IMG/VR virus record: IMGVR_UViG_3300044612_000068
Span: 1-20,448 of that record
Length of the DNA: 20,448 bases
Direction: 5' to 3' (one strand)
From: a virus
Made by a program: the position numbers and the translations under genes
Part shown: piece by piece, positions 4,432 through 20,448 of the stretch
Numbering within the stretch: position 1 is the stretch's first letter
Layout: the number at the start of each line of letters is the position of its first letter
Notes under the pieces: generated by a model
Databases searched by the model: none
Seen by the model: the letters and a program-made list of their open reading frames with translations, nothing else
Told to the model about the DNA's origin: nothing

Positions 4432-7400
4432 TCAGTGGAGTTTAGATTTTAACTCGGCCAGCTCACGTTTGAGCTGAACCAATTCCTTCGCAAGCTCAAC
4501 CGCAGACGCCATGGCAGCGTTGCCGTAGGAAACGGACAGCGTTCCCATTTCATCGCCAGCCTTGGTGATCGCCTCGGGCAGTAACCTCTGTAAGGACTGC
4601 GCCGAGACACCAACCTGCGTGATTCGCTCGCCGTCGGTGCGGTCGTAAATACCAACCTTCACCGCAGCCAACCTCTCGACGAAGCTTTCCGGCATCGGAC
4701 GCCAATTAGTCTTAAGCCGTTCGTCCGAGTACGCCGTCACGTTGCCGGACGCCTTGATCGAGTACGACATGCACGAACCAAAGCCGCCGTTGATTAGTAC
4801 CAACATGCCATGGCTGTCGAGGTTGCCAGCGACGCCGCCAGCGTTCGGATGAGACCACGCCATGCCGTACAGCGACCCGGTGGTAGTGCCGTCGGCTGGC
4901 AGCTTGTAGCTGTCACCCATAGCGAACACGCCTTGATAGCGAGTCGAGGCGTAAGCGCCAACGATGCCGTTGCCGTAGTTGTCGTCGATGTAGAGGTTGC
5001 CATTAGCGCGTGTGGCGCGGGCTGCTGTGCCTGTGGTATCGGAATATGCAACCCGGCAATCAGCATGGAAGCCGTCGCCAGAATAGCCAGCCAAGTACCA
5101 ATGCGAGCCAGTCCAGTACGTCTGAACGCTGTAGTCGCTGTTGTCATCGCGGCGATACAGACGGGTCACGCCTCTGCTGTTTCGACTGTCGCTGTTTAGA
5201 CTTGAGTTGTAGGTTAGCGAGACCGCGTAATCAGTGTAGTTGTTGTCGTCAATCTGCCTGCGCCATGAGCTAAAAGACCCGCCGCTACAACCGCGTGAGA
5301 ACAGCAAGCCACCTTGGTTGTACTGTCCGGCGACCTGAATGCCGTATGCGTTTCCTCCAGTTGATCCAAGGCTGTTTGTTGTGTAGTGAAGCGCATTGAA
5401 GCCTTGAATGTGCGAAGTGCCGCTCGGATAGTTGCTGCCGCTCCAGATGTCGAAGAAGCCGGAGCCGCCGTGGAACGTCTCGTTTGCCCCGTACCCGCTG
5501 TGACCGAATGAGCCGACCCAGTAATTGCTGTCACTGGTGTAGTCGATGCGTCGGCTGTAGTTGTTCTTTGCGGACTCACCAATGTGAACCTTGAAGTCTG
5601 TCAGCGTCGAGTAGCGCAGATAGTCGTCGTAAGACGAATATATCCGAGTCAATCTGTTTTCTACGCCGCTGTTACCGCTAGTTGTGTTGATCCATCCAGC
5701 TTGGATGTAGCCGTTGCCATCCGTTCGGACGATCTTGTTTGCGTTATCGTTACGACCGGAGTGGACATCGAGACCGCCAACTGTAGCGGCGTTACCAGTA
5801 ATGCTGATTCCCCACGTTCCGCTTGCTCCGCTGCCGGTGAGCGAAGGCGCGTAGCTAGTGTAGTTACCGGCATGAAGCGCAACGTACGCAGAGCCGCCGC
5901 CGTATGTCGAATTGCTGATATAGAAGGCGCCGCTTTCGTGGTAGTACTTCCACCCGTAGCCGTGCGTGTAGTAGCCAGTCGTGTTGCCGTTCGTCATCCA
6001 CCCAGCGCTGCCAACGCCGGTTGAAAACATCGTTCCCCAGTACCCGTTACGTGATCCATCAATCAGAACTGAGCCGTAAGAGCTAGATGATGGCGTCAAG
6101 TGCGTCATTGACCCAGAGCCGGGGAAGTACAAGCCGTATCCCGTGCCGCCGTGGAAATGGAGCCACGTATAGACGTTGTTGTACGAGCCGCTGTAGTTAT
6201 CGAAGCGACCGTTCGACACGTTAGTGGCGTACGTGGCAGTGCCGCTTATATTGATGCCCCACGTTCCGGACGCGCCGCTGCCGGTGAGCGATGGGGAGTA
6301 GGAGGTGTAGTTACCAGCATGGAGAACGCGGTTGTTGCCGTCGTAATGTTCCGACTCGTTACGGATTGGCATCCGAGAGGTGACCTCCGAGGCGACCGTG
6401 CTCGAATTGTACGAACGCGGCGAGAACGTCGCGCCGTTGGATGCGGTGTAGGTGCTGTAGTAAGGCGTCGCGCCTTTATACATTCCGCCGGGACCGTGGA
6501 AGCGATAGTAGGCATTGCCGCCGCGAAGCCAAACGATGAGTCCGTTGACCGACAGCGCCATGCCGCCGACCATTGTCGTGTACTGCTCGGAGAACTGGTT
6601 GACGCGGATCGTCTTGTCGTTACCACCCCACCCGCCGTCGCCCGACCATTCCCAAGTGAGCGTCAAACCGCCACGGTGTGCGCCAGTGCCTATTGGGTCC
6701 CACGGAGCGGTGTCACCGTAGCCGCGAGAGATCGACCAGCTTCCGAAGTGGAACCACGCATACACATCGAAGCGAACTGGGTAGTACGTGTTTGCGTCGC
6801 CGCCGACGTAGAACTCGATAAACGAATCGTTCTCAAAGATTCGTATGTCTCGACCATTAGCAGTGATTGAGCTGTTAAATGTGGTCGGCTGCGACATTGT
6901 AATCGTGCCGTTCTCAAGAGTGAGAAGCGGCTGCGAGCCATAACCATAGCGGTCAAATACGAATCGGCTCCCGCTGAAGGTATGGGTTCCACTACTAGAA
7001 GTTGATAGTGACGACCACGAGTTGACGCCGCCGACCGTGCCGCCGTAATAGATCGTCCCCGTAAGGTGCGTCGTTCCTTGAACGCCAAGGTTCGCGTCGG
7101 TGTTAGTCGAGCCACCGGCAGTGATTTGGCTTGCGCGAATCGCGCCACTTATTGTGCCGCCGCTTGTCGTTAAAAGACCAAGCTGGCTAATAACGTGAGC
7201 TGGGCTTGACTTACGGCAGTAGTTATCCGACCCGCTGTTCGTCCAGAAAGCCGCGATCGACGGGTTCTCTGTGTTACTGCTTGACTGATTGAAGTGAACG
7301 CCGAAGAAGTAGCGACCGTAAATGTCGCCGGCGCTGTCTCGCTGGACGAGCCTGTTCGCGGTCGCTGCGGTGTCGGCGCCAACAGTGATTGTTCCGTTTC

Positions 7401-10400
7401 CGGCTGCGTCTCCCATCCGCAGACCGCCGCGAGCCTCGATCGGGCTTTGCACATAAAGCCCAGCAGTCTGTCCACCTCTTGGGAGGTACAGCCCGTAGCT
7501 TGCAAAATTGGCAACGTCGTCCGTTGCCTCGGATCGAATTGTTAGCCGTCCACCAGCCTTGGATATGCCATTGGTGCTGTCAGTAAAGTAGAGAGTGCCG
7601 GTCAGCGTCCCGCCGGTTAACGGCAGCTTCGTGCTGTCAGTCGCGGACGTTGCTGTCGCAGCGTTGCCGGTGATGTTGATGCCCCAAGTGCCGGACGCGC
7701 CTGTTCCGGTCAGCGATGGGGAGTAGGAGGTGTAGTTACCGGCGTGGAGGATGAGATGGTTTGACGCTGTCGCGTAGTTATTTGCGCTTTGCAAATAAGT
7801 CCCGCTGTAATTTTCGCCGATTTGAAGCTGTGCGCCGTTCGTGCTGCCTTCCATCGCACGAAGGCCGCTGAAATAGATACGGTTGTTCCCGCCGGTAAAG
7901 TACAGCCCGGTGCCGTTGCCGGAAGCCGTCAGATTCCCCGTCAGCGTCCCGCCGGACAGCGGAAGCGCGTAGCTGTTGTAGTTCCCGGCGTTGAGAACTA
8001 GATTTCCGGTTAAGTATCCATTCGCGTAAATGTTTCCAGCGACATACAGATTGTTGCTGCCACCGCCTTTTCCAATCTGAACGTGCTTGCTACTGTTGTC
8101 ATATTGCAGCCATAGGTGATCTGTAGCGGCAGATCCCAAAGCCTTGCCCCAAATATGCCGAACCTGTATCCGACCTTGCCCTGTTCCGCCCACGTTAAGT
8201 GCAGGCGTTGCGTCGTCCCACGCTAGTGTCGACGTGATGGTTACTTGCCCGGTTATCGCCCCGCCGGACAGCGGCAAATAGCTCGACAGCGCCGAGCTTG
8301 TGATGTAGCCGCTCGGGTTCGTGCTGTTATATGGCGTGTAACCAAGAGCGGTCGTTACCTGTGCGCCAGTGATACCAGTCAGGTATCCGCTGTCGTTCGT
8401 AAACGTGCTGACATTTGTCGGCTGCGTATACGAGAACACGCCAGTCGATGAGTTATACGAAAGTGATCCAGTCGCGCTTACGGCTGAACGCGCACGGGCG
8501 TTCGTGAAGTACAGGTTAGTGCTGCCTTCTGTAATGCCATCGCTGTTTGGCGTGGTGTAGCTGAAGGTGCCGGTCGTATTGTTGTACGACAAAGAGCCAG
8601 AGGCTGAGATCGAAGTCCTTACACGAGAGGTCGTGTGGTAAAGATTCGTGCTGCCTTCCGGAACCGCATCAGTGCTTCCGGGTGATGCGCTAATTTCAAC
8701 GTATGCTGAACCAGACCAGCGATAAACCTTCGCGCTGTCTATGGCGATGTAGATCTTTCCAGAGTCTCCAGTCGCTGGGAAAGCCGCGAGGTTCGCGTAC
8801 TCAAGGACGTCGTCAACGTAAGACGGCAAGTGCGATGACGCAATCTTTCCGGAGCTGTCTAGTCCGGCGTAGCCATTAGCAACGCCCTTATTTGCGGCGT
8901 TCTCTGGCGTAAATCCGAGTGCGGTCGTTACATCGCCGGACGCAATATTCGTGCCAACGGTAACGCGGCCTTTCCCATCAACAGTTACTTTCGAGTACGT
9001 TCCAGCGGTGACGCCGCTATTCGCAAGCGTCAGCGCGACAGGTGAGCCGGTCGTGCCGGTTCCGGTAACGTCTCCGGTGAAGTCAAGGGAGCCAGACGGA
9101 ATGGCGACCCAAGACGGATTAGTGCCGTCGGTGCTGAGGTACTTTCCGCTGTTGCTAGTCTGCGAAGGCAGAAAGCTATTCTTAACAGCAGCACTCGGGC
9201 TGCGAACCTCAGATACATGCAGATACTGCGCGTGATCGTCATCGCCCAAGCCGGAAAGGTTGCCGTGATCCTGAACGAGGGCAGCAGCAACGCCAGCAGA
9301 CTGCAAGGCGCGAAGGTCGTACACAGCGACCGTACTGGCTTTAACGCTGTTCGTGAAGCCAGTCTTGTGGGTGTAGATGACCTTATAAAGAGGGCGGAAC
9401 TCGACTGATGGGAACCCGCTGAGGCTCAATCCCTCAAAGGTCATCGCCTCTGCTTGCGATAGCTGGTTCGTCGGAGCCTGACTGATGATCGAAACAACTG
9501 GGTAATTCAGGTTGTTCGTGGCGAGAATCCACGAAACGAAGTACTCGTTGTTATTAACGCTCGCCGTAGACCAAGTCCCGCCGCTGTACAGGTTGTACTG
9601 CGGAATGCCGCCAACAACCTTGAACGGGAAATCGGTCGGCGCGTCAATTACCCAAGCATTGCCACTAAGGTACAGAACAGGGATGCGAGCAGGGCCAGAC
9701 AAATCCTGCTGCCACGTATTTGCGACAGGCGAATTAGTCGAGACGATATCGACCTGCATGTCTTCGTCGAAGAACGTGCCGCCGCCGATGTCGATTTGCG
9801 CATCCGCATCAGTCGCGCCAAGGCCAGTCGTCGTGTATCCGCTTGCGCCAAACCCGTTGGCAATTGCAGCACCGCGAGTACGGTGAAGGTACTCGTGAGT
9901 CTGCCAGTCAAGCGTGATGCCATGACGCTCATCGCCAAAGTAGACAGCCGTCGATGTAGTCGCGTTCCAGTAGACGTACGCTGTCGGCGCATGGTCTTCC
10001 CAAGTGAAATACGACATCTGCGTCGAAAGGACGCCAGACTGATTGAAGTAGATAAAATGCAGACCAGTCGTATTAGGAATGACGACGGTCTGCGCGGACG
10101 TATAAGTATATTTTACGCCCTTACACCAAACAACAAATTCAGTCGCAACAGGGGCAATCGTAAACGTACGAGTGCCGCTATCGAATGAGATCGATGACTG
10201 AGTCTTATCGGCGTGACCAATAGGCTCGCCCGTAGGCTCTGTCGAAGGCTCCCACGCAGTACCGTTCCAGACGAGTTTCTCTCCTGCGGCCGGCGCGTCA
10301 GTCGAGACAGCGCGGCCTTGGATCTTGGCTACGTTTGGTGCGGAAGAAGTACCGGAAAGATCTCCACCAATCTCAACCTTATCCGAGTTGAGATTGGTGA

Positions 10401-10467
10401 AGTTGGCGTCCAGCTCATTATTGGTAAGCGGACTGCCCTTCCCTGCGCGGGTAGTAATATTCGACAT
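4432..10467 (-). CDS. Giant tail fibre with C-terminal S74 intramolecular chaperone
   Basis: A 2011-residue receptor-binding fibre. The N-terminus (MSNITTRAGKGSPLTNNELD) is a typical virion-attachment start. The shaft contains repeated modules: EGSTNLYxTxxRxRxxxSAxGSLSY twice (about residues 605-665), LPLxGGxxTG units, and three copies of a segment around SLTGxGASGTWGI (starting near 907, 1382 and 1531). Near 1255-1310 is a Trp/Gly-rich domain (LTLTWEWSGDGGWGGND), and near 1707-1738 a pyocin-knob-like segment ending SSWRRQI. WSHPNAGG at 1871 precedes the C-terminal domain. The last 98 residues are a peptidase S74 chaperone with the S1914/K1919 dyad in SDERLK, a pattern that cleaves itself off at the Ser-Asp after trimer folding, followed by a coiled-coil tail. 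The start has AGGGGA at good spacing. Confidence 0.97.
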   Translation of the reverse strand: MSNITTRAGKGSPLTNNELDANFTNLNSDKVEIGGDLSGTSSAPNVAKIQGRAVSTDAPAAGEKLVWNGTAWEPSTEPTGEPIGHADKTQSSISFDSGTRTFTIAPVATEFVVWCKGVKYTYTSAQTVVIPNTTGLHFIYFNQSGVLSTQMSYFTWEDHAPTAYVYWNATTSTAVYFGDERHGITLDWQTHEYLHRTRGAAIANGFGASGYTTTGLGATDADAQIDIGGGTFFDEDMQVDIVSTNSPVANTWQQDLSGPARIPVLYLSGNAWVIDAPTDFPFKVVGGIPQYNLYSGGTWSTASVNNNEYFVSWILATNNLNYPVVSIISQAPTNQLSQAEAMTFEGLSLSGFPSVEFRPLYKVIYTHKTGFTNSVKASTVAVYDLRALQSAGVAAALVQDHGNLSGLGDDDHAQYLHVSEVRSPSAAVKNSFLPSQTSNSGKYLSTDGTNPSWVAIPSGSLDFTGDVTGTGTTGSPVALTLANSGVTAGTYSKVTVDGKGRVTVGTNIASGDVTTALGFTPENAANKGVANGYAGLDSSGKIASSHLPSYVDDVLEYANLAAFPATGDSGKIYIAIDSAKVYRWSGSAYVEISASPGSTDAVPEGSTNLYHTTSRVRTSISASGSLSYNNTTGTFSYTTPNSDGITEGSTNLYFTNARARSAVSATGSLSYNSSTGVFSYTQPTNVSTFTNDSGYLTGITGAQVTTALGYTPYNSTNPSGYITSSALSSYLPLSGGAITGQVTITSTLAWDDATPALNVGGTGQGRIQVRHIWGKALGSAATDHLWLQYDNSSKHVQIGKGGGSNNLYVAGNIYANGYLTGNLVLNAGNYNSYALPLSGGTLTGNLTASGNGTGLYFTGGNNRIYFSGLRAMEGSTNGAQLQIGENYSGTYLQSANNYATASNHLILHAGNYTSYSPSLTGTGASGTWGINITGNAATATSATDSTKLPLTGGTLTGTLYFTDSTNGISKAGGRLTIRSEATDDVANFASYGLYLPRGGQTAGLYVQSPIEARGGLRMGDAAGNGTITVGADTAATANRLVQRDSAGDIYGRYFFGVHFNQSSSNTENPSIAAFWTNSGSDNYCRKSSPAHVISQLGLLTTSGGTISGAIRASQITAGGSTNTDANLGVQGTTHLTGTIYYGGTVGGVNSWSSLSTSSSGTHTFSGSRFVFDRYGYGSQPLLTLENGTITMSQPTTFNSSITANGRDIRIFENDSFIEFYVGGDANTYYPVRFDVYAWFHFGSWSISRGYGDTAPWDPIGTGAHRGGLTLTWEWSGDGGWGGNDKTIRVNQFSEQYTTMVGGMALSVNGLIVWLRGGNAYYRFHGPGGMYKGATPYYSTYTASNGATFSPRSYNSSTVASEVTSRMPIRNESEHYDGNNRVLHAGNYTSYSPSLTGSGASGTWGINISGTATYATNVSNGRFDNYSGSYNNVYTWLHFHGGTGYGLYFPGSGSMTHLTPSSSSYGSVLIDGSRNGYWGTMFSTGVGSAGWMTNGNTTGYYTHGYGWKYYHESGAFYISNSTYGGGSAYVALHAGNYTSYAPSLTGSGASGTWGISITGNAATVGGLDVHSGRNDNANKIVRTDGNGYIQAGWINTTSGNSGVENRLTRIYSSYDDYLRYSTLTDFKVHIGESAKNNYSRRIDYTSDSNYWVGSFGHSGYGANETFHGGSGFFDIWSGSNYPSGTSHIQGFNALHYTTNSLGSTGGNAYGIQVAGQYNQGGLLFSRGCSGGSFSSWRRQIDDNNYTDYAVSLTYNSSLNSDSRNSRGVTRLYRRDDNSDYSVQTYWTGSHWYLAGYSGDGFHADCRVAYSDTTGTAARATRANGNLYIDDNYGNGIVGAYASTRYQGVFAMGDSYKLPADGTTTGSLYGMAWSHPNAGGVAGNLDSHGMLVLINGGFGSCMSYSIKASGNVTAYSDERLKTNWRPMPESFVERLAAVKVGIYDRTDGERITQVGVSAQSLQRLLPEAITKAGDEMGTLSVSYGNAAMASAVELAKELVQLKRELAELKSKLH
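4562..4613. repeat. Nested inverted repeat in S74-domain coding region
   Basis: TTGGTG/CACCAA (6), CTCGG/CCGAG (5) and GCAGT/ACTGC (5) stack in order with small bulges. A 7-bp hairpin, CAGCTCA-CGTT-TGAGCTG (4459-4476), lies near the fibre stop. Confidence 0.72.
5774..5877 (-). repeat. Fibre shaft repeat, copy 3
   Basis: Begins LHAGNYTSYAPSLTGSGASG and continues TWGISITGNAATVGG. It differs from copies 1 and 2 at a few residues and leads into the distal receptor-binding half of the fibre. Confidence 0.83.
6224..6324 (-). repeat. Fibre shaft repeat, copy 2
   Basis: Begins LHAGNYTSYSPSLTGSGASG and continues TWGINISGTATYAT. It is closest to copy 1 in the N-terminal half and diverges after GINISG. 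Confidence 0.85.
7648..7749 (-). repeat. Fibre shaft repeat, copy 1 (LHAGNY...SLTG...NAATAT)
   Basis: Encodes about 34 residues beginning LHAGNYTSYSPSLTG and ending NITGNAATAT. It shares most residues with the copies at 6224-6324 and 5774-5877, and the DNA is also similar, so the copies probably arose by duplication or recombination within the fibre shaft. Confidence 0.85.
10365..10399. repeat. 13-bp perfect inverted repeat near fibre gene start
   Basis: Arms CACCAATCTCAAC and GTTGAGATTGGTG with a 9-base loop, within codons 23-35 of the fibre gene. It is far longer than expected by chance and placed where mRNA structure can affect early elongation. Confidence 0.9.
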
Positions 10468-16042: not shown

Positions 16043-17894
16043 TCATTTCTCCCAGCTCCGGCATTTCCTTGAGAATTCTGTCCGCGTCGATATCGAGCGA
16101 CTTGGCGATATCCTTGATAAGCGCCTCGAAGTTCACCATCTGCCCCATCGCAGGGTTTGCGACGAGCGACATGAACTGCAACAGCCGCTGCGACTGCACT
16201 TCCTTCTGGATAAGCGCAGTCGATCCACGCGCAATAATCCGCATGTCACCCTTGATGCTCTCATCAGAGTTCCACGCCATGTTCCAATCGTACAACGCAC
16301 GAACCATCGGCGCCAGCAGGAAGTCATCGATGTTCTTGATGACCGACTTCAGCGAGATGCTGGCCGCACCCATGAGCATAGACATGCCAGTGGCAGTCTT
16401 GTTCATGCCGCCAGAGGTAGAGCCATGCGTATAGGAGGGGAGCGAGGTGGTCTCATCGGCGAACCGACGGAACAACTCGATGACCCCACCCAATGCATTT
16501 GCATTACTCTCGGGCTGGTAGAAGCGAACCATCGGCATGGCAGCATCGCCGCCCTCGCGCAGGAAGATTCGCCACGGGTAGATCTGGGTCGGGTCTTCGC
16601 CAGCCGCAATCAGATCCGTGTTGACTTCAACGAGGGGGCCAGAGGAAATTGCCATGTTGTCGATGAAGATGCGGGTTGCCGCATTCATCGTCACCTGACT
16701 GTCTCGCATCTGGCGCGGTACGCCGACGCCCCAGAACTGGTGTGGGGTCTTCTCGTACGGAGCCAGTTTGTAAGGAATCTCCGCCCCGGGAAGTGGGTTG
16801 ATCTGCGCCTTTAGAACGCGGTCTGAGCAGAGCCAAACATTGGCCGAGAAGATAGAGTTGAGATCATCATCAGGGATATCAACTCCGACATCGCGGAGAT
16901 CCGCGCCGACGATGTCACCCCAAAATTCGAGTACCTCGTATCGATTCGACTCCGAGTACTCGTTAACATTGCTCAGGCTGCGACGATCCCGCTCATGCTG
17001 CAACTCTTGGTGGTTGCCATGGCGGAAGTTCGTCATGATGTAGTCGATCGCTTGATCGTCAAATCCCGGCGATGCTTTAAGCTCCGCAAGCTGCGACTTC
17101 GTGAGAACGTGACGGCGGTAAACGCCAGTCGAGTCCTGCATCGAGGTGGCAAACGGGTCGGGGTAAAGGTCGAACACGGAGACGCTTTCAATCTCCGGCA
17201 GAATCCGCTCTTCGTAAATCAGTACGTGCTGGTCGCCGTTGTGACGCCAGTGACCAGACCGCTCCACTCGCAGCGTCCCGGCCTTGATCGCCCCAGTCCC
17301 AAAGATGCACATCTCCATGATGGTCTCTTTGAGCTTCATCTCGAGATTGGCCTCGGACGTCTGATCATGGATGACCTCGGTCATCTTCTCAGCGCGTTCC
17401 CCGGCTTCCTTCTTGATGTACTCCTTGATCTCTTCGGTGCGTTCCCGGATCAAATCTTGAGCCTGTGACGGGTCAAGACCCGTCATCATTTTCATCTCCT
17501 TCGCCGCCTCGACCATGAGCTTGGTTTCCAAGCCGGGGATCGTGGGAATCGGCGTAGGGTTGATGGAATAAAAATACTCTCCCGGTTGGAAGAGCAAGTC
17601 GACGATACGGGAGTAAGCGGCCATGACCTTAGTTCTGGTAAGGCCAACATATACTCGCGAACGCCCGGGCGGGAGACGCGCCAAAATGTCAGGCTCGTAA
17701 ATGCCAAGGAACTGGCGAAGGTCAACGAGCCACTCGTCTTCTATGCGCTGGCGGGAATCTTTCCAAGTCTCGAACTGACCCCGGAGCCGGGAACCAAGGT
17801 CATTGAATACAGCGGACTGTGAATCAGTCGGCGAAGACATGCCGTTCTCGACTACGAGATCGCCCGGCTCTGGATATTCGTCTTCTCTATTCAT
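15897..17894 (-). CDS. Portal protein (P22-type, 665 aa)
   Basis: A large portal that forms the dodecameric DNA gate of the procapsid. Features include LRGQFETWKDSRQRIEDEWL, VYVGLTRTKVMAAYSRIVDL (conserved near portal N-termini), the EMCIFGTGAIKAGTLRVERS segment, ESVSVFDLYPDPFATSMQDS, TPHQFWGVGVPRQMRDSQVT (clip/stem-preceding segment), NAATRIFIDNMAISSGPLVE and HGSTSGGMNKTATGMSMLMG. The C-terminus is Pro/Gly-rich low-complexity sequence. The length and motifs fit podovirus P22-like portals rather than the shorter HK97 type. The start ATG shares its A with the terL stop (TAATG) and lacks a ribosome site, so translation is coupled. The 3' end overlaps the next gene by 146 bases. The gene holds several strong hairpins (17466-17485, 16661-16690, 16887-16916). 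Confidence 0.96.
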   Translation of the reverse strand: MNREDEYPEPGDLVVENGMSSPTDSQSAVFNDLGSRLRGQFETWKDSRQRIEDEWLVDLRQFLGIYEPDILARLPPGRSRVYVGLTRTKVMAAYSRIVDLLFQPGEYFYSINPTPIPTIPGLETKLMVEAAKEMKMMTGLDPSQAQDLIRERTEEIKEYIKKEAGERAEKMTEVIHDQTSEANLEMKLKETIMEMCIFGTGAIKAGTLRVERSGHWRHNGDQHVLIYEERILPEIESVSVFDLYPDPFATSMQDSTGVYRRHVLTKSQLAELKASPGFDDQAIDYIMTNFRHGNHQELQHERDRRSLSNVNEYSESNRYEVLEFWGDIVGADLRDVGVDIPDDDLNSIFSANVWLCSDRVLKAQINPLPGAEIPYKLAPYEKTPHQFWGVGVPRQMRDSQVTMNAATRIFIDNMAISSGPLVEVNTDLIAAGEDPTQIYPWRIFLREGGDAAMPMVRFYQPESNANALGGVIELFRRFADETTSLPSYTHGSTSGGMNKTATGMSMLMGAASISLKSVIKNIDDFLLAPMVRALYDWNMAWNSDESIKGDMRIIARGSTALIQKEVQSQRLLQFMSLVANPAMGQMVNFEALIKDIAKSLDIDADRILKEMPELGEMNGLEADEGSGEGVAGAVQPPSVDGLVQPTPPTPRPMPQGSGNNGQLPL
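16661..16690. repeat. Bulged inverted repeat in portal gene (6 + 6 bp)
   Basis: CGATGA-AG-ATGCGG, loop GTTG, CCGCAT-TCATCG. Twelve pairs with one AG bulge. Confidence 0.8.
17466..17485. repeat. Inverted repeat in portal gene (9 bp)
   Basis: TGACGGGT-CAAG-ACCCGTCA, or 9 bp with a two-base loop, encoding MTGLDPSQ. Confidence 0.83.
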
Positions 17895-19546
17895 TAGTAA
17901 CCCGCAATTGAGTCAGCAATTTCTGGCCTAGTAGACCACGTTCGTTCTCGACGCGGCATGGAGTTCAACCCGAATATTGCTATTGCATAAGCTACGACCC
18001 TGTCGTCAAAGCACCCATGCGCCGCATTCGTCTTGCCCCGTGCGTCAATGACGTACGTCCTCAACTCTTCCAGCAATTCCTTATCAGCGACCCCTGCCTC
18101 ACCCTGACGAATCAGGGCAGCGAGGTTGTCGATGATCAGCGGCTTGGTCTTACTCGTCGTAAGCCACCCCGCCTTCCGGGTCATCTTGTCCCCATAAGCG
18201 TGATCGACCGTCTGTTCGACATATAGATTTGGATAGCCCAAATCCTGTAATCTACGCAGAGTGGTCAACCCATGGTTGTTTCTCTCAACCAAGAGCCACG
18301 CCTTTTTATAATAGTATCCTAACGATTTCAAGATGTCACCATATTCCCACGGATCAACGTGTCCGTGCCAGCAGGCAACCTGCCTGCCATTGGAATCGAC
18401 AACTTGTGCGCAACTGTAGTCGCCGTTCTCCAAGCCCTCGGCGACGTCCACTCCGATCGAATAGCGTTCTCCCTCCATGGGAGGCGACCAGACTCGGAGC
18501 GGCCCCTCGGCCATAGGCCGAAAAACCCCCTCAACCACATCCCCCACGAAGGTGGGCGACCAAACCTCTTCCTGTACGGCATCCAAGTACTTCGGCTCCA
18601 CAAAGGTACGTCCCGTAGTCAGGAACGCCTCCATGGGGGTAGCCGGATACTCCTGCCGGAAAAGGTCATCGCCTAACTCGGCAACCTTCGCCCTCCGCCA
18701 ATAGAGCTGGGCATCCGTCAGCCCATACTCCTCGGCCAGCATCTCTTCTTCCTCATCCCGGACAAAGTCGCCCGGGGGCTTTCGCGAGTACTCAGGAAGA
18801 AGGAACCAAGGCACGAAGATCAGCTTGTACTCACCCTCACCCCTCAATGCCTTGAGGCAAGCCTCGTAAAACCACCCCGACATGCCGTTGGCCGTGGACT
18901 CAAGGATGACTTCCGTCCCCTCGTCACCTACGGTCTGTAAGAGGCCAGCCGAGATATCCGTACCTTCGGGGTAGTAAGCCACCTCCGACCCATGGACGAA
19001 CTGGTTAGTCTGCCCTCGGCCCGTCTGGCCGGTTCTCGCCGTACCCACTCGGTACTGCGACTCAATCCCGCCAAAGGCTATAAAGCCCTGTGAGCGGCTT
19101 TTAAGGGGTGGTTTGAAGAAGGGGTGCTGAAGCTTGTCGTAGAAGAAGCTGACCATCCTAAAGATGCTGGAGGTCGATTCCGCCAAATGGGATAGCACGA
19201 ACGCGGAACTGTTCCGCTGACCCGTTACCCGCCAGAAGTATCTCCCCTGTACATAGGTCGAGATGCCCAACTGACGGGCTTTAAGGATCAGAACCCGAAC
19301 CTTACCCGTCTCACGGCGCTGAGACTCAATCTCCTCGTGGACGAGAAGCTGGCCTCGGTTCATCCCGAAGGGGACGATCTTTCCCTGCTTGTTGACAATA
19401 CGCAACAACTTCTTTGCGTATAGAGGGAAGTCGGACTTCAGCCGCTCGGCTAACTTGACGACTCGGGGGTCGTGCTTGGTAAACCGCTTATACCGGGAGG
19501 AGGAGGTAACGTGGAGAGGCTCATGGGCGGGGGTCTGGCTGCCCAA
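17894..19546 (-). CDS. terL: Terminase large subunit (ATPase-nuclease)
   Basis: A 550-residue packaging motor. In the N-terminal ATPase domain the Walker A-like motif is KARQLGIST (89-97), a Walker B/SEVAYY segment with the catalytic Glu lies around 187-192, and the coupling motif is LESTANG (215-221). In the C-terminal RNase H-like nuclease the acidic residues are D367 in SIGVDVAEG, E421 in LLVERNNHG, and D514/D515 in CFDDRVVAYA. The length is normal. The only in-frame start is TTG at 19546, because no ATG or GTG lies between the upstream stop and residue 62. A purine-rich GGGGGAGGGGGG lies just upstream. It follows terS by 111 bases and overlaps portal by one base. It acts at the portal vertex with TerS. 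Confidence 0.97.
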   Translation of the reverse strand: MGSQTPAHEPLHVTSSSRYKRFTKHDPRVVKLAERLKSDFPLYAKKLLRIVNKQGKIVPFGMNRGQLLVHEEIESQRRETGKVRVLILKARQLGISTYVQGRYFWRVTGQRNSSAFVLSHLAESTSSIFRMVSFFYDKLQHPFFKPPLKSRSQGFIAFGGIESQYRVGTARTGQTGRGQTNQFVHGSEVAYYPEGTDISAGLLQTVGDEGTEVILESTANGMSGWFYEACLKALRGEGEYKLIFVPWFLLPEYSRKPPGDFVRDEEEEMLAEEYGLTDAQLYWRRAKVAELGDDLFRQEYPATPMEAFLTTGRTFVEPKYLDAVQEEVWSPTFVGDVVEGVFRPMAEGPLRVWSPPMEGERYSIGVDVAEGLENGDYSCAQVVDSNGRQVACWHGHVDPWEYGDILKSLGYYYKKAWLLVERNNHGLTTLRRLQDLGYPNLYVEQTVDHAYGDKMTRKAGWLTTSKTKPLIIDNLAALIRQGEAGVADKELLEELRTYVIDARGKTNAAHGCFDDRVVAYAIAIFGLNSMPRRERTWSTRPEIADSIAGY

Positions 19547-19592
19547 GGAAGCACCCCCCTCCCCCTGCTGCGTGATGTCACCTTGTGCGGAT

Positions 19593-19605
19593 ATAGGTCA
19601 CCTAT
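19593..19605. repeat. Inverted repeat (5 bp, loop 3)
   Basis: ATAGG-TCA-CCTAT. It is the leftmost and weakest member of the array and of a size that could occur by chance. Confidence 0.5.
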
Positions 19606-19613
19606 GCCTTTAG

Positions 19614-19628
19614 GATGCCTTCGGCATC
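19614..19628. repeat. Inverted repeat (6 bp, loop 3)
   Basis: GATGCC-TTC-GGCATC. Perfect stem with a three-base loop in the terS-terL gap. Confidence 0.7.
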
Positions 19629-19634
19629 TTGCGA

Positions 19635-19649
19635 TTCCCTAGAAGGGAA
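19635..19649. repeat. Inverted repeat (6 bp, loop 3)
   Basis: TTCCCT-AGA-AGGGAA. Perfect stem immediately next to the following hairpin. Confidence 0.7.
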
Positions 19650-19671
19650 GACATCCCTTAATGGGATGTCT
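19649..19671. repeat. Inverted repeat enclosing the terS stop codon (9 bp, loop 5)
   Basis: AGACATCCC-TTAAT-GGGATGTCT. The terS stop (TTA on plus, 19658-19660) is in the loop. No T-run follows on the minus strand, so it does not look like a terminator. Confidence 0.85.
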
Positions 19672-20059
19672 CGCCGTCGCCGATGTCGGCAAAAAAACCT
19701 TCGTTAACAGTCACTTGTGACTGTTCTGGAGCATAGATGCCGAGATGCTTCGCCAGAAGGTCTAGTGCCTTAACCCTTGCAGAAGGGTTTTCGGCACTAG
19801 CCGCCTCCTCTTTGAGTCGCTGAATGACCCATTCAGCGTTGACTTCCGCTTTATCCACAAGTTTTTGCCTCGTAGAGGCAATGAACTCCTGAACCTTCGG
19901 CTCCTTTAGGAGTTTGCATCCGGTCTTGGCGGCTCCTTTTTCGGAATATCCGGCCTTTATGGCCGATGCCGTGGCATTGCCGGTCTCGACATAGGCTGCC
20001 GCGAAGACAGCCCATTTGGCTGTCTTCTGCCGTTGTTTGGCGTGTCTTTCGGTGTACAT
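19658..20059 (-). CDS. terS: Terminase small subunit
   Basis: A 133-residue protein that recognises viral DNA and starts packaging. An N-terminal helix-turn-helix region lies around residues 15-62 (AAAYVETGNATASAIKAGYS, then KGAAKTGCKLLKEPKVQEFI), followed by an oligomerisation helix (about 63-108). This is the pattern of Terminase_2 family proteins. The start is ATG 20059. It has no Shine-Dalgarno sequence and a stop lies 12 bases upstream in frame, so the message may be leaderless. Unusually, the gene is full of perfect hairpins (stems of 7-10 bp at 20003, 19884, 19865, 19818, 19762 and 19706), and its stop codon lies in the loop of a 9-bp hairpin. A T7 run at codons 121-123 forms a slippery heptamer. 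Confidence 0.9.
   Translation of the reverse strand: MYTERHAKQRQKTAKWAVFAAAYVETGNATASAIKAGYSEKGAAKTGCKLLKEPKVQEFIASTRQKLVDKAEVNAEWVIQRLKEEAASAENPSARVKALDLLAKHLGIYAPEQSQVTVNEGFFADIGDGETSH
19706..19725. repeat. Inverted repeat in terS (9 bp; 8 bp with CTTG loop)
   Basis: AACAGTCA-CTTG-TGACTGTT, codons 112-118. On the minus strand it is followed eight bases later by a T7 run. Confidence 0.85.
19762..19800. repeat. Nested inverted repeat in terS (8 + 7 bp)
   Basis: Outer arms CTAGTGCC/GGCACTAG and inner arms AACCCTT/AAGGGTT around a GCAG loop, separated by a small internal loop. In total 15 bp in 39 bases of coding sequence. Confidence 0.87.
19818..19838. repeat. Inverted repeat in terS (9 bp, loop 3)
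   Basis: CGCTGAATG-ACC-CATTCAGCG, encoding the NAEWVIQR stretch. Perfect stem. Confidence 0.87.
19865..19881. repeat. Inverted repeat in terS (7 bp, loop 3)
   Basis: TTGCCTC-GTA-GAGGCAA, encoding IASTRQ. Perfect stem. Confidence 0.83.
19884..19914. repeat. Inverted repeat in terS (7 bp, loop 17)
   Basis: Arms AACTCCT and AGGAGTT. The right arm can alternatively fold with a nearer CTCCT (19901-19905). Confidence 0.65.
19951..19977. repeat. Two adjacent small hairpins in terS (5 bp each)
   Basis: CGGCC-TTTAT-GGCCG (19951-19965) is followed directly by ATGCC-GT-GGCAT (19966-19977). Each is short; their adjacency within the array is notable. Confidence 0.6.
20003..20027. repeat. Inverted repeat in terS (10 bp, loop 5)
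   Basis: GAAGACAGCC-loop-GGCTGTCTTC over codons 12-19 (KTAKWAVF). It is the longest perfect stem inside terS. Confidence 0.88.
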
Positions 20060-20065
20060 AGCCGG

Positions 20066-20095
20066 ATTCTAGTGTGACCCTCGCATCAAATGCAA
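20066..20095 (-). promoter_or_regulatory. Candidate late promoter, leaderless terS start
   Basis: On the minus strand TTGCAT (20095-20090) is followed after 18 bases by TAGAAT (20071-20066), a fair match to sigma70 hexamers. Transcription would begin about 6-7 bases downstream, right at the terS ATG (20059), which has no ribosome site. The -35 lies in the base of the 90-nt inverted repeat at 20092-20181, so DNA or RNA structure there could modulate it. The call is based on sequence match only. Confidence 0.38.
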
Positions 20096-20181
20096 TCTAT
20101 ATGCCATTAAGAGATATAAGCAATTTCATGCCAACTCCTGTTGGCATTAGAAATTGCATCTCTAATGGCATATGAGATTGC
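20092..20181. repeat. 90-nt nested inverted repeat (39 bp)
   Basis: From outside in: GCAATCT/AGATTGC (7 bp), ATATGCCATTA/TAATGGCATAT (11), GAGAT/ATCTC (5), GCAATTTC/GAAATTGC (8) and ATGCCAAC/GTTGGCAT (8), with loop TCCT at 20136-20139. Only small bulges interrupt it (G20174, A20110, 20116-20119, 20148-20149). Every arm is perfectly paired. It could extrude as a cruciform or fold as RNA from either strand. Confidence 0.92.
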
Positions 20182-20196
20182 TTCTTCATAAAGAAG
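20181..20196. repeat. Inverted repeat (6 bp, loop 4)
   Basis: CTTCTT-CATA-AAGAAG, directly abutting the 90-nt palindrome. Confidence 0.65.
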
Positions 20197-20219
20197 ATCT
20201 TGTCTCTTTGAATCCCCCT

Positions 20220-20276
20220 GACTCTTTCAGAATTTTCCTCCCGAGATTTGTGAGGGAGGAAAATTCTTTCAGAGTC
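20220..20276. repeat. 57-nt inverted repeat (14 + 6 bp)
   Basis: Inner perfect arms at 20229-20242 and 20254-20267 (AGAATTTTCCTCCC / GGGAGGAAAATTCT) around an 11-base loop. Outer arms GACTCT/AGAGTC are separated by a symmetrical 3x3 internal loop. The two sides also share a direct TCTTTCAGA. No T-run follows on either strand, so a standard terminator is unlikely. Confidence 0.92.
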
Positions 20277-20363
20277 TTCCCCCCTTACAGCCCCCATTGA
20301 ATCGGCACAATGGTTGGCGGGTTTGGATTTAGCCGGTGTACATTGAACACTACGGAGACGAAC

Positions 20364-20448
20364 ATGGGCATCCATCTCGAACGTGGCATCAAGTTTGCGA
20401 ATTCGCTGTCCGGCAATCTGTCGGCGGTTCGGCGTGAGCGGATTGACG
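20364..20448 (+). CDS. Start of divergent plus-strand gene (partial)
   Basis: ATG at 20364 with GGAG six bases upstream opens 28 codons without a stop to the right edge: MGIHLERGIKFANSLSGNLS, then AVRRERID. The visible part is too short to recognise. It is the only credible plus-strand gene in the window and marks the border between the late operon and another transcription unit. A weak promoter match (TTGGCG 20314-20319, TACATT 20339-20344, 19-base spacer) is not convincing. Confidence 0.52.
   Translation, partial: MGIHLERGIKFANSLSGNLSAVRRERID

Follow-up and report, generated by a model that had tools for sequence, protein, structure and literature searches.

Short DNA hairpins tend to be viewed either as regulatory sites that stand alone or as hot spots of mutation. 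In some phages, the pac site is located within or close to terS, the gene of the terminase small subunit. Quasipalindromes are mutation hot spots in E. coli (PMC7202029), and template switching creates and repairs hairpins (PMC8794818). In Nematomorpha, a binary pattern of perfect or imperfect pairing has been read as a sign of conversion (PMC6649704). As for phage N4, a C-G closing pair and the loop bases G and A are needed for short hairpins to be extruded from supercoiled DNA (PMC4496689).

At the locus described here, short hairpins fill an entire region of a phage genome. The region reaches into one end of the window, by which we mean the entire 20,448-nucleotide stretch analysed (positions 1 to 20,448 of the IMG/VR virus record IMGVR_UViG_3300044612_000068). 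The pattern is real, strong and apparently undescribed: no phage with such a hairpin zone was found in the literature (open-licence papers), and a DNA search of a phage collection gave no match. Our leading explanation, with a probability of roughly 0.45, is that hairpin-templated correction, i.e. template switching, is concentrated in the zone, although the cause is not settled.

A chain of hairpins over terS

The dense chain of near-perfect hairpins over terS is real. Positions 19593-20276 (684 bases) contain seven perfect stems with 7 bp or more and loops of 2-8 bases, against a mean of 0.27 and a maximum of 4 in 500 dinucleotide-preserving shuffles; a preliminary description of this DNA had accurately put the chance expectation at about 0.3. 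For stems of at least 8 bp, the numbers are 5 observed and 0.06 shuffled. The RNA folding energy of 19580-20290 lies 16 standard deviations below that of shuffles. Sixteen inverted repeats had been listed, and hairpins are indeed present at these places, but those at 19951, 19966 and 19679 have just 4-5 bp and carry no weight. The view that a normal terS underlies the hairpins, which are accommodated by codon choice, is borne out by the domain matches of its product and by codon-preserving shuffles, a check already proposed in that description. On its own, terS has five stems of at least 7 bp (loops 2-12) versus 0.45 when codons are shuffled with the protein fixed, and none of 1000 such shuffles reached five. 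The elements of the window are as follows.

17894..19546, minus strand: terL; sharp downstream edge of the zone, where the hairpin excess falls to about 2-3 fold
19593..19605: 6-bp hairpin ATAGGT-C-ACCTAT, the final one ahead of the sharp zone edge
19614..19628: 6-bp hairpin GATGCC-TTC-GGCATC; the opposite strand reads as a C(GAA)G triloop
19635..19649: 6-bp hairpin TTCCCT-AGA-AGGGAA
19649..19671: 9-bp hairpin spanning the terS stop codon (DNA folding z -5.9)
19658..20059, minus strand: terS, terminase small subunit, 133 aa, whose codons carry hairpins (PHROG 51, E 1.8e-26; Pfam Terminase_2, E 1.2e-19)
19706..19725: 9-bp hairpin AACAGTCAC-TT-GTGACTGTT, unchanged in every relative compared (z -3.8)
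19762..19800: two-part hairpin with 15-nt arms and a nested 7-bp stem at 19772-19789
19818..19838: 9-bp hairpin (z -9.0)
19865..19881: 7-bp hairpin TTGCCTC-GTA-GAGGCAA, with a triloop of the GNA type
19884..19914: imperfect hairpin, 9/10 bp paired
20003..20027: 10-bp hairpin (z -6.2)
20092..20181: long intergenic hairpin of at most 39 predicted pairs, with an 8-bp tip at 20128 (z -10)
20181..20196: 6-bp hairpin CTTCTT-CATA-AAGAAG
20220..20276: intergenic hairpin with a 14-bp inner stem, 20/23 pairs
20364..20448, plus strand: start of p112, a divergent gene of unassigned function, cut by the window end; the zone runs on through p112 (equivalent L082:2902-3237, minus strand)

Extent of the zone and controls

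Relatives from IMG/VR, with TerS proteins from identical down to 84% identical, were used to trace the zone past the window end. Counted from the terS start, the dense zone stretches from about -3.6 kb to +0.44 kb; in the relatives a shoulder follows, out to about -7 kb. The zone ends abruptly before terL. Upstream of terS, its genes lie on the opposite strand and comprise p112, an amidoligase-like gene and a gene for a class II glutamine amidotransferase (GATase); terS makes up about one-tenth of the zone. The zone comprises some 40-60 different hairpins in about 4 kb, over four genes, with coding stems of 6-10 bp. In five relatives, stems of 7 bp or longer number 13, 9, 13, 12 and 10 in the amidoligase gene alone, versus about 0.9 in synonymous shuffles. 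The feature had initially been placed on terS and its flanks. It is real there, but this placement understated it and wrongly centred it: the terS region forms the border of a roughly 4-kb zone with a shoulder, most of which lies past the window end.

Across five lineages, stems of at least 7 bp occur at 14-33 times the shuffled expectation in the zone, at 6-21 times in the shoulder and at 1.6-4.4 times in the remaining genome. The corresponding values are 0.6-2.1 times in seven control stretches, taken from relatives with a 60% or 34% identical TerL and from two other phages. The hairpin excess is a genome-wide tendency with one hot zone. Relatives with a 60% identical TerL lack the zone, and such stems are not in excess in the control phages MW202733 and CRP-7. 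More distant TerS relatives, at 27-49% identity, have loci in which no stretch of 700 bases contains more than five such stems, the usual number being 0-2.

We also considered the amidoligase/GATase module as the carrier of the hairpins and rejected it, as GATase relatives (42-68% identity) in other phages are mostly without a zone. One contig (3300042924_001589, L190:1400-5970) shows the same divergent order of terS, amidoligase and GATase genes as here, with a terS of its own beside the other two genes and no detectable relative of this TerL. Its mild hairpin excess is a different thing, due in part to the palindrome CATAACA-W-TGTTATG, which is repeated at gene starts and is probably an operator.

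As for the phage itself, its TerL matches those of Stx-type podophages at about 31% identity. A 2533-aa protein with an LPD38 domain (L129:9622-17223) is reminiscent of the giant protein of Stx-type podophages. A virion-packaged, T7-like RNA polymerase of the N4 kind was considered and discarded, since in a scan of part of the proteins this giant virion protein showed LPD38 but no polymerase domain. Positions 4432-10467 of the window encode a 2011-aa protein that resembles a tail fibre and contains repeated blocks of sequence. A scan of bacterial genomes with TerS returned relatives of 31-55% identity at best, and no host was found.

DNA-level character

The feature looks DNA-level rather than mRNA-level: G-T mismatches show no advantage over A-C, the zone covers genes on both strands as well as intergenic DNA, three-base loops are the commonest, and about half the triloops are GNA or its complement. 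If mRNA structure were kept, one-sided G-U changes on the coding strand should outnumber A-C changes. This is not observed: single-sided changes in stems comprise 222 G-T versus 284 A-C, where random column pairs give a null ratio near 1:1, and one-mismatch 8-bp stems comprise 15 G-T and 21 A-C. Among 59 distinct triloops, GNA and its complement TNC are about equally common on one strand (17 and 15) and together reach 54%, versus 13% both in the background and in a control region. Their share climbs with stem length in the zone only. In the core, 26 of 52 triloops are GNA or TNC, 13 of them with C-G closure; hairpins of this kind may be able to extrude. Only the core genes show the GNA enrichment; terS and the shoulder do not.

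Evolution of the stems

Some hairpins are common to all relatives and others are lineage-specific, while their total is constant. The fate of a stem is binary: it is either nearly intact or replaced. Between relatives G002 and G009 (90.7% identical), change amounts to 0.049 per site in stems versus 0.085 outside. All five pairs changed on both sides are still Watson-Crick, where 0.74 both-changed pairs were expected (P 0.0002; this and the following P value are approximate, because pooled tests reuse related sequences or overlapping comparisons). In all comparisons, third codon positions evolve more slowly within stems. In replaced lineage-specific stems, codon positions 1-2 change at 0.239 versus 0.166 in the flanks (P 0.002). 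At 78% identity, 21 of 45 stems are kept, whereas by our own estimate neutral rates would leave only a few per cent; the kept class is low in change by definition, and its informative part is its size. Furthermore, codon registers that pair synonymous with constrained sites are preferred, and the 3:3 register is depleted relative to synonymous shuffles.

Paired changes are common. Compensatory synonymous changes, which the preliminary description had suggested seeking, do occur in relatives: the 20003..20027 stem carries a silent paired A-T to G-C change in G009. In the 19818..19838 stem, a paired T-A to C-G change in G005 alters an amino acid on one side (Gln to Arg). In relatives, the 20092..20181 hairpin has changed on both sides of its pairs and never on one side alone (wobble). 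As for the 20220..20276 hairpin, relatives have paired insertions and substitutions across both arms, with G-U at a few positions. Its loop, TCACAAA..TC, is strongly conserved while the stem changes in pairs, and it is possibly a separate regulatory element.

Origin of the hairpin zone

The excess of hairpins, the extent and edges of their zone, its DNA-like character, the bias towards perfect pairs, the paired changes and the turnover have been shown here; which process accounts for them is a matter of likelihood. In the leading explanation, short inverted repeats in the approximately 4 kb at the junction of the divergent terS and early operon would form hairpins when the DNA is negatively supercoiled or single-stranded. 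Strand synthesis over a folded hairpin would copy one arm from the other, as in quasipalindrome correction or template-switch mutation. Imperfect repeats would turn perfect, a mutation in one arm would be reverted or copied onto its partner, and fresh hairpins would arise continually. Codon degeneracy would absorb most of the changes, and the proteins would remain functional.

For 8-bp arms, the excess is 44-fold with no mismatch, 3.5-fold with one and 1.2-fold with two, a steep fall like the one read as conversion in Nematomorpha (PMC6649704). The paired changes between G002 and G009, the lack of a G-T preference, the faster codon positions 1-2 in lineage-specific stems and the mild genome-wide excess are further points for template switching. 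A 30-nt insertion in G002 (L126:1210-1270) is an inverted copy of its own flanks and is missing in G001, G003 and G004; it is likely a fresh template-switch event. Relatives G005 and G007 have the same right arm and differing 5-nt left-arm blocks, each of which perfects the hairpin in another register. Judging from their sequences, this insertion and these arm blocks look like single copying events. Loops of the C(GNA)G type, which favour folding, also speak for template switching. A systematic scan for multi-base clusters copied from an unchanged nearby arm was close to negative: 10 reverse-complement cases among about 600 zone clusters are a weak excess, close to the controls (2 mirror, 3 complement). 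Lineage-specific stem differences are spread over both arms with no one-arm excess, which repeated changes may mask at 78-82% identity. Template switching, named third among the possibilities at the outset, now ranks first, but the near-negative scan leaves the cause unsettled.

The zone coincides with a divergent promoter region and with the cumulative GC skew minimum. Candidate causes of its location are therefore negative supercoiling by divergent transcription, an origin and the processing of a packaging-cut end, for which the phage encodes an exonuclease (YqaJ) and an annealing protein (Sak) as candidates. That template switching chiefly generates the hairpins, and that one of these three circumstances determines where they lie, is our inference. 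Against template switching, the boundary of the zone is sharp, no mutational mechanism has been demonstrated that would halt there, and the GNA loops are enriched in the core alone.

This sharp boundary speaks for the main rival, a selected array of DNA structures, in which extruded hairpins would help to start replication, initiate packaging, protect against nucleases or handle the chromosome, with selection on their number and stability rather than on their sequence. We regard such selection as possible, while leaning against it. The density is constant over five lineages despite hairpin turnover, stems are retained far above neutral rates, and the slower third codon positions in stems, the preferred codon registers and the covariation in both intergenic hairpins point the same way. 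The core is also rich in C(GNA)G loops, the type required for extrusion of the N4 promoter hairpins (PMC4496689). Conversely, most hairpins have no fixed position, a protein would find neither a common sequence nor a fixed spacing to recognise, a mild excess extends to the rest of the genome, and lineage-specific stems come with amino-acid changes. To our knowledge, no function requires some 40-60 different hairpins in 4 kb, which counts against selection. That selection in a dsDNA phage should keep dozens of extrudable hairpins, unrelated in sequence, over four genes as a physical element for replication, packaging or protection, read by shape and not by sequence, strikes us as somewhat unlikely.

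Ordered structure in the mRNA of terS and the early operon, which might stabilise the message, control translation or evade RNA-targeting defence, is improbable. The RNA fold z-score of -16 and the position of hairpins within transcribed genes would suit it. However, G-T is not favoured over A-C either in single-sided changes or in one-mismatch stems, GNA and TNC are equally frequent on one strand, loops peak at 3, transcription runs in opposite directions within the zone, and an Rfam search of the zone matched no family. The earlier suggestion of ordered late mRNA structure is likewise disfavoured by the lack of G-U tolerance on the coding strand, by the inclusion of two divergent directions and non-coding DNA, and by the DNA-type loops.

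A pac array at terS, recognised by TerS, had also been put forward, and the coincidence of the zone edge with the terS/terL junction is in its favour. It fails to explain the extent of the feature, because the zone extends far beyond terS, reaching 3.6 kb upstream through genes of the other strand rather than being limited to terS or its border. Moreover, the hairpins are unrelated in sequence, and the loci of distant TerS relatives have few such stems. Packaging recognition is hence a very unlikely origin.

Chance and assembly or amplification artefacts are refuted by the shuffles, whose counts are far exceeded, and by the five-lineage comparison: contigs from two samples do break inside terS, but at each break the contigs share an exact word (99 and 74 bases), which is what joins in an assembly graph should leave, and the zone recurs in contigs of many independent metagenomes. 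These overlaps (end of G007 with start of G012, end of G008 with start of G011) mark a branching point of the assembly graph in terS, perhaps reflecting strain variation.

With relatives at graded distances, the birth, perfection and decay of hairpins can be traced base by base. Under the leading explanation, the phage zone is a natural laboratory for DNA-hairpin mutation, and selection and copying could be told apart with recoded phages. If the hairpins are functional, they would constitute a DNA-shape code on top of protein genes, and the zone a place to study an undescribed DNA-structure function.

Comparison with known systems

The genome-scale ordered RNA structure (GORS) of RNA viruses resembles the phage zone in its dense local structure over coding sequence. 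The zone differs in being DNA-like, with no wobble tolerance, both strands involved and triloops. The pac sites of P22/SPP1-type phages are alike in their location at terS, but the known ones occupy one short region, versus about 4 kb and four genes here.

The promoter hairpins of the N4 virion RNA polymerase share the short stems and 3-base loops, and they need C-G closure and G..A loop ends to extrude at physiological supercoiling (PMC4496689). N4 has three such promoters with conserved stem bases, whereas the phage zone has no common stem sequence.

The coding palindromes of Nematomorpha mitochondria (PMC6649704) are closer, being perfect repeats in protein genes that are gained and lost between species, with binary perfection and unequal codon registers. 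They are long (up to 284 bp) and few, in contrast with the short (6-15 bp) and very dense stems of this dsDNA phage, which occur in genes on both strands; with coding stems of 6-10 bp, the zone lacks the long arms of the Nematomorpha type (tens to hundreds of bp).

Finally, quasipalindrome correction and template switching in E. coli, yeast and RNA genes (PMC7202029, PMC8604942, PMC8794818) show the same perfected short repeats, paired changes, stable loop motifs and occasional inverted-copy insertions. The one-arm signature appears here in single cases and not systematically. Elsewhere these processes have been described at single hot spots or as scattered events, whereas here 40-60 hairpins fill about 4 kb in one phage lineage, up to a sharp edge.
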